DNA of 47,056 nt. Origin: an uncultured Rhodospirillales bacterium (GTDB taxonomy: Bacteria > Pseudomonadota > Alphaproteobacteria > Acetobacterales > Acetobacteraceae). Made by a program: the position numbers and the translations under genes. Below the pieces are notes generated by a model. It saw only the letters and a list, made by a program, of their open reading frames with translations. It did not search any database and had not been told where the DNA came from. The stretch covers positions 1 to 47,056 of the forward strand of contig CAIMOR010000014.1 of the NCBI GenBank assembly GCA_903843125.1, in the 5' to 3' direction. Of the stretch, positions 3,246-3,480 are shown piece by piece. Position 1 is the first letter of the stretch. Every line of letters starts with the position of its first letter.

Positions 3246-3278
3246 GAAGGCCCCGCCGGTTGTCCCGGCGAGGCCTTC
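3246..3278 (-). terminator. Rho-independent terminator of the Liv operon / small-ORF transcript
   Basis: A 13-bp stem (3247-3259 with 3265-3277, one G-U pair in the minus-strand RNA, extended by 3246/3278) closes a 5-base loop. On the minus strand it is followed by CTGCGTTTT. It lies 33 bases after the 25-codon ORF stop and 46 bases before the sulfatase start, so it separates these transcripts. Confidence 0.8.
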
Positions 3279-3311
3279 CCATTGCGTCTGCCGTTGCCGG
3301 CCGGCGCTGGC

Positions 3312-3389
3312 TCAGGAAGCCGTCACCACAGTGGTGGCAATGGAGATCCAGGCCGCGGGCAAGCAATGCGGCGAAGGGCAATGAGACAC
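3312..3389 (-). CDS. 25-residue peptide of unknown function with a maximal Shine-Dalgarno
   Basis: A short ORF with a GTG start. Its product begins MSHCPSPHCLPAAW and ends TTVVTAS: two His-Cys pairs separated by PSP, then a Ser/Thr-rich tail. It lies in the 3' part of the Liv transcript, 91 bases after the binding-protein stop, and ends 33 bases before a strong terminator. Upstream on the minus strand, 3389-3405 reads as the full complement of CTGGATCACCTCCTTTC, the conserved 3' tail of 16S rRNA. The GGAGG core ends 7 bases before the GTG. This is among the strongest ribosome sites possible, so translation is very likely. Function is unknown; it could be a RiPP-type precursor, a metal-binding peptide or a translated regulatory leader. 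I see no modification enzyme beside it. Confidence 0.6.
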   Translation of the reverse strand: MSHCPSPHCLPAAWISIATTVVTAS

Positions 3390-3480
3390 TGGATCACCTC
3401 CTTTCAGTTGGTTTCGGATGACCCAAGCCTGCCCAAACGCCGCCGTGTCGCGCAAGCGAATTGTCGCCTGACTCAAAGTT

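Follow-up and report, generated by a model that had tools for sequence, protein, structure and literature searches.

What is made from a 25-codon open reading frame (ORF) whose ribosome-binding site pairs with the 16S rRNA over 17 bases? The question is raised by a locus in a window of 47,056 nucleotides (the whole stretch of DNA analysed) from an uncultured Rhodospirillales bacterium of the Acetobacteraceae. Comparison with relatives places the locus in an already described kind. It is probably, with a probability that we put at roughly 0.7, the Acetobacteraceae version of a single-copy alphaproteobacterial small transcript, which would act as a 30S-binding, weakly translated regulatory RNA. 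New here are the identification of the element, apparently also its linking of CC2171 with rreB-type genes, the strong covariation of one helix (P1), a second helix (P0), and the evidence against the peptide as the conserved product.

The extended Shine-Dalgarno (SD) sequence is GAAAGGAGGTGATCCAG (3389..3405; all window coordinates given here are on the minus strand). A reading made earlier from the sequence only had claimed a 17-base match to the 16S tail, and this is confirmed: the bases at 3405-3389 are exactly complementary to the final 17 of 16S rRNA. The final G of the 17-mer is also the first base of the GTG start codon. The 7-base spacing from GGAGG to the start and the 25-codon GTG frame with its stop (3389-3312; MSHCPSPHCLPAAWISIATTVVTAS plus TGA, 3312..3389) were likewise as that reading had them. 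The 14-base core of the SD occurs a single time in the window, where 0.10 matches are expected with two mismatches allowed, and AAAGGAGGTGATCCA occurs a single time in the whole assembly. A search for the 16S 3' end in the same assembly did not find it. The 16S gene of one family member ends in CTGCGGCTGGATCACCTCCTTTC, so all 17 SD bases are truly complementary to the 16S tail in the family. The SD:16S duplex is predicted at -31.2 kcal/mol, where ordinary SD cores reach -7 to -12. Over dozens of genera the 17-nt SD is nearly invariant (90 distinct copies compared). In DNA searches of 100 related genomes, GAAAGGAGGTGATCCAGTGTCTCATTG proved nearly unchanged across many genera of the Acetobacteraceae and also outside them, with the remainder of the gene diverging.

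From predicted promoter to terminator the element spans 3246..3455, and the positions of the -35 box and the terminator are kept in relatives. The -35 box is TTGCGC (3450..3455) with a CTTG core. When copies are aligned at the SD, CTTG is found 46-58 nt upstream of it in 67/91 copies, against 4.3 in shuffles. The -10-like CAGGCT (3426..3431), 18 nt after the -35 box, is assigned by position; Bradyrhizobium copies have TATATT in this place. A generic sigma-70 promoter scan did not flag CAGGCT, and the promoter is recognised solely through comparison of relatives. Transcription is expected to start near 3418, for a predicted RNA of roughly 170-180 nt (about 3418-3240). The leader AACCAACT (3406..3414) carries the CAACAAC motif of the family, part of an A/C-rich consensus that 90 copies show over positions -8 to -1 relative to the SD. 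An intrinsic terminator hairpin, GAAGGCCTCGCCGGGACAACCGGCGGGGCCTTC followed by TGCGTTTT (3246..3278), is kept in relatives and lies 3' of the ORF in nearly all copies. A strong terminator had been claimed here; a 14-bp stem is indeed present (3278-3246), but the T run after it is weak, which is why a generic terminator scan was blank at the hairpin. With its own -35 box, leader and terminator the element is thus a free-standing transcription unit. A sodF_sRNA match near the terminator (22.5 bits, E 0.19) was set aside as noise.

The sequence-only reading recognised no family for this locus, wrongly as it proves. Positions 3413-3248 align end to end with RF01867, the Caulobacter sRNA CC2171, at 66.8 bits (E 8e-14). 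This is short of the curated gathering cut-off of 75 bits, for which reason a default Rfam scan of the window at that threshold returned nothing (nor did a tRNA scan); the CC2171 match was obtained only by an E-value scan of a short stretch. A full-length alignment scoring under 75 marks the window copy as a homologue below the curated threshold. All Acetobacteraceae copies tested fall under the cut-off, and across 190 genomes of the class 39 match the model significantly and just 7 pass. Caulobacter vibrioides is the sole match among 14 named control genomes. The window copy shares with CC2171 the aligned positions 1-159, the leader, the SD, the GTGTCTCATTG segment, P1 as outer helix and the terminator; in the consensus structure the outer helix, CAUUGuC/GaCaAUG, is mostly formed, as is the terminator hairpin. 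It differs in that the central hairpins of the model fit it poorly and that the ORF and P0 are both missing from the model. In Rfam 15, RF01867 is among the covariation-improved families, with one additional covarying pair (PMC11701678). The element is overlooked by both the default Rfam scan and protein-gene annotation.

Helix P1 joins codons 2-4 (TCTCATTGC, 3378..3386) to GCAATGGGA (3277..3285), which lies directly before the terminator stem with a slight overlap. Codon 2 is TCT in 88/90 copies and codon 3 is CAT in 72/90. Serine has six codons and the genomes carrying copies are GC-rich, yet TCT is kept; the conservation of TCT and CAT follows from the pairing of this arm with the bases before the terminator. 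For example, the arms read CATTGC/GCAATG in the window and CATTGT/ACAATG, CATCGC/GCGATG and CATGG/CCATG in other copies. Other loci have CATAGT/ACTATG (L229), CACCAAA/TTTGGTG (L228) and ATGAGATT/AATCTCAT (L165), and further loci have CGAGATC/GATCTCG (L156) and GAGTTG/CAACTC (L184). Arms score 6.50 with their own partners, a level reached in 0/400 shuffles, and 5.08 (sd 0.10) with partners swapped; with one copy for each of 32 lineages the values are 5.96 and 4.30 (0/200 shuffles), and the shuffles used for P1 and P0 remove relatedness only partly. Control segments show little of this own-partner excess. P1 is formed in 95/104 copies by 54 distinct helix sequences. The covariation means that "MSHC" and "MSHR" in the translations are helix letters.

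Helix P0 involves the SD itself. Its 5' arm GATCCAG (3389..3395) combines the 3' half of the SD with the first base of the GTG codon. Its 3' arm CTGGATC (3345..3351), the Trp-Ile codons inside the ORF, repeats the sequence found at the 16S 3' end. The arms covary at the spacer base: a G in the spacer goes with C in the ORF in 19/19 copies, A with T in 43/60, and T with A in 2/6. Copies with spacer G have C before GGA or GGG in the ORF, CGGATC (Arg-Ile) in most of them, and L157 and L158 have T in the spacer and AGGATC in the ORF. Own pairing of P0 lies above all shuffles and does so after lineage collapse as well. GGATC is present within codons 5-20 in 14/34 lineages, where shuffles give 1.5. 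Copies of the MSHR clade have a longer match, CCGGATCACC, with ten bases of a 16S-like end; in some lineages P0 is weak or missing altogether. When single sequences are folded to minimum energy, P1 appears in 32/88 copies and P0 in 21/88. P0 and P1 cross, and would thus be either parts of one pseudoknot or states that alternate. Several MSHR-type copies (among them L020, L073 and L086) have a second 16S-like stretch after the stop codon, GGGTCACC, complementary to SD GGTGATCC. An extra insert of ~50 nt is found in some MSHR-type copies (L073, L076, L077, L124).

A small mRNA of similar design is rreB. It is reportedly a 165-nt mRNA with a 17-nt SD, a GTG start and a 14-aa product, said to be bound to the 30S subunit and weakly translated; its extended SD combined with GTG reportedly impedes translation. 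Bradyrhizobium copies of the present element have a 14-codon ORF (MSYxKRCHLAxVAR), and we take them to be the rreB of Hahn and colleagues. They match RF01867 at 41-44 bits (E 4e-6 to 4e-5), below the cut-off. Common ancestry with the window copy is indicated by the single covariance model that covers both and by the same order of promoter, SD, ORF and terminator. The window element resembles rreB/rreR in its 17-nt SD, GTG start, tiny ORF and terminator at similar distance. It is unlike rreB in having 25 rather than 14 codons, another peptide and other neighbours. The rreB/rreR type, as reportedly defined by Hahn et al. 2017, calls for a stretch of 16 nt or more complementary to the 16S 3' end directly ahead of a short ORF; in the window 17 nt precede 25 codons. 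The CC2171 sRNA and the rreB mRNA, described separately, are here joined as one alphaproteobacterial family. Hahn et al. 2017 (RNA Biol 14:1353, PMC5711450), on rreB/rreR, is cited in PMC7298713. Long SD pairing at initiation is also a feature of extended-SD mRNAs of Staphylococcus aureus, where, according to PMC13009471, the extended SD is general to mRNAs; here it belongs to one dedicated small RNA.

How such an RNA might work can be outlined from its parts. The short promoter would give a roughly 170-nt RNA starting just upstream of the SD. Since the SD can pair with the whole tail of the 16S rRNA, the RNA would load very stably on the 30S subunit, as has reportedly been shown for rreB. The deliberate ribosome tethering suggested earlier fits a near-invariant SD beside a variable peptide, although the 30S binding itself is something that we infer. 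The start region would be closed by P1 and P0. The 16S tail may first land on the 5' part of the SD that is left unpaired, GAAAGGAGG, and would then have to displace P0 to gain the start codon. The short ORF is probably weakly translated, so that the act or length of translation would be kept and not the peptide. A more specific version is tentative and on balance doubtful: a natural toehold-type switch read by the ribosome, in which the SD 5' half catches the 16S tail, P0 is displaced and P1 is opened. Were that so, the RNA would sense free 30S and answer by its own stability or by a trans-acting output, and the sequence of the peptide would be irrelevant. Such a regulator would respond to free 30S in a class in which an SD is missing from many genes; for example, 75.4% of genes in Caulobacter are without one (PMC4117421).

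The transcript could instead be a purely non-coding, trans-acting sRNA, with an incidental ORF and with SD-like bases that pair with other RNAs or with the 16S tail. Constraint at the RNA level dominates, Rfam types RF01867 as 'Gene; sRNA', and a CC2171 member is among the predicted sRNAs of Mesorhizobium huakuii (PMC5596092), all of which gives this account some weight. We nevertheless think it unlikely, given the constancy of the start codon, its spacing and the length of the ORF. No copy has an interrupted ORF, and in most of 34 lineages its length stays near 20-30 codons, with no such constancy in the other two frames. In Caulobacter, two earlier predicted ncRNAs proved to be translated; whether CC2171 is one of them is left unstated in that report (PMC4117421).

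A functional small peptide, whether secreted, modified or metal-binding, made at a high rate from the very strong SD, is a distinctly poorer prospect. The open frame and its steady length would suit it. So would L113 (position 4098, plus strand), where a one-base insertion separates SD and start, ATG replaces GTG and the MSHC frame is kept; L110, a close relative, has the usual SD-start form. Longer ORFs are also found in one distant lineage (L145, L148). They begin about position 1517 of each locus, run to 56-58 codons with a signal-peptide-like start (MSHGAKPVIAVLFGISALLTAGVASAC...), and possibly encode a secreted small protein derived from this small RNA. Against a conserved peptide, no purifying selection on amino acids was found outside the helix codons: pN/pS is 1.46 in the 25-codon set, 1.53 within the genus and 0.90 in the MSHR clade, rough values for an ORF so short and GC-biased. 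With pN/pS about 1.5, the claim of a highly translated peptide lacks support, and the reported effect of an extended SD with GTG at rreB runs counter to it. The conserved His-Cys residues are a product of RNA pairing, which Trp-Ile also follows, so pursuit of the peptide would mislead. Among relatives the first His-Cys becomes His-Arg, His-Gly and others, with compensating changes in the partner arm. The second is missing even from a copy in the same genus (L004, MSHCPSPLTL). A metal-binding peptide was considered and rejected, and the secreted and modified readings likewise lack support. A Pfam search gave no family for the peptide. Peptide searches of 100 relatives, a check proposed with the original claim, were convincing within the genus and in a few Liv-linked relatives and gave noise elsewhere. 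Setting the 17-mer against the ORF, as was also proposed, gave a divided answer: the residues of the peptide are not kept as the SD is, yet the length class of the ORF is held. Translation may matter; the peptide sequence appears not to.

The weakly translated regulatory RNA is also favoured by the genomic setting over a leader peptide or attenuator of the downstream sulfatase, or a regulatory 3' tail belonging to the Liv operon, both very improbable. Pfam identifies a Liv substrate-binding gene upstream, 75 nt before the element, and a sulfatase gene downstream (3199-1637) on the same strand, as these accounts would have it. The place at the end of a Liv operon, noted earlier, is real as regards the Liv gene, but it is a habit of the lineage and not a property of the element: in about half of Acetobacteraceae Liv loci the element directly follows the Liv substrate-binding gene, and nine related genomes without it there carry a copy elsewhere. 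Between genera the neighbouring genes vary, in both orientations, and the constant same-strand downstream gene of a leader-peptide attenuator is absent. The element also has its own promoter, and its terminator stands between it and the sulfatase. The regulatory-leader role was rejected for Liv and sulfatase alike, and read-through from the Liv operon into the element is possible.

A chance match or stray 16S gene fragment, suggested by identity with the reverse-complemented 16S 3' end, is refuted by conservation in over 90 distinct copies, by complementarity that stops exactly at the 16S tail and by the family-specific ORF, promoter and terminator beyond it, and has a negligible likelihood. 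The SD-start pattern is present in about 100/385 alphaproteobacterial genomes, nearly always as one copy, with zero hits for the reversed control, and a search with an exact pattern through roughly 210 genomes from the rest of the phylum gave a single hit. Two genomes (G071, G097) are exceptions to the single-copy rule, each with two RF01867 matches. Annotated plasmid records of Azospirillum, Methylobacterium and Skermanella list no gene under the match, in a gene table that is incomplete. In Bradyrhizobium, Rfam matches place the element beside a tRNA gene (L185, 1269-1339, minus strand; L188, 1630-1700, plus strand).
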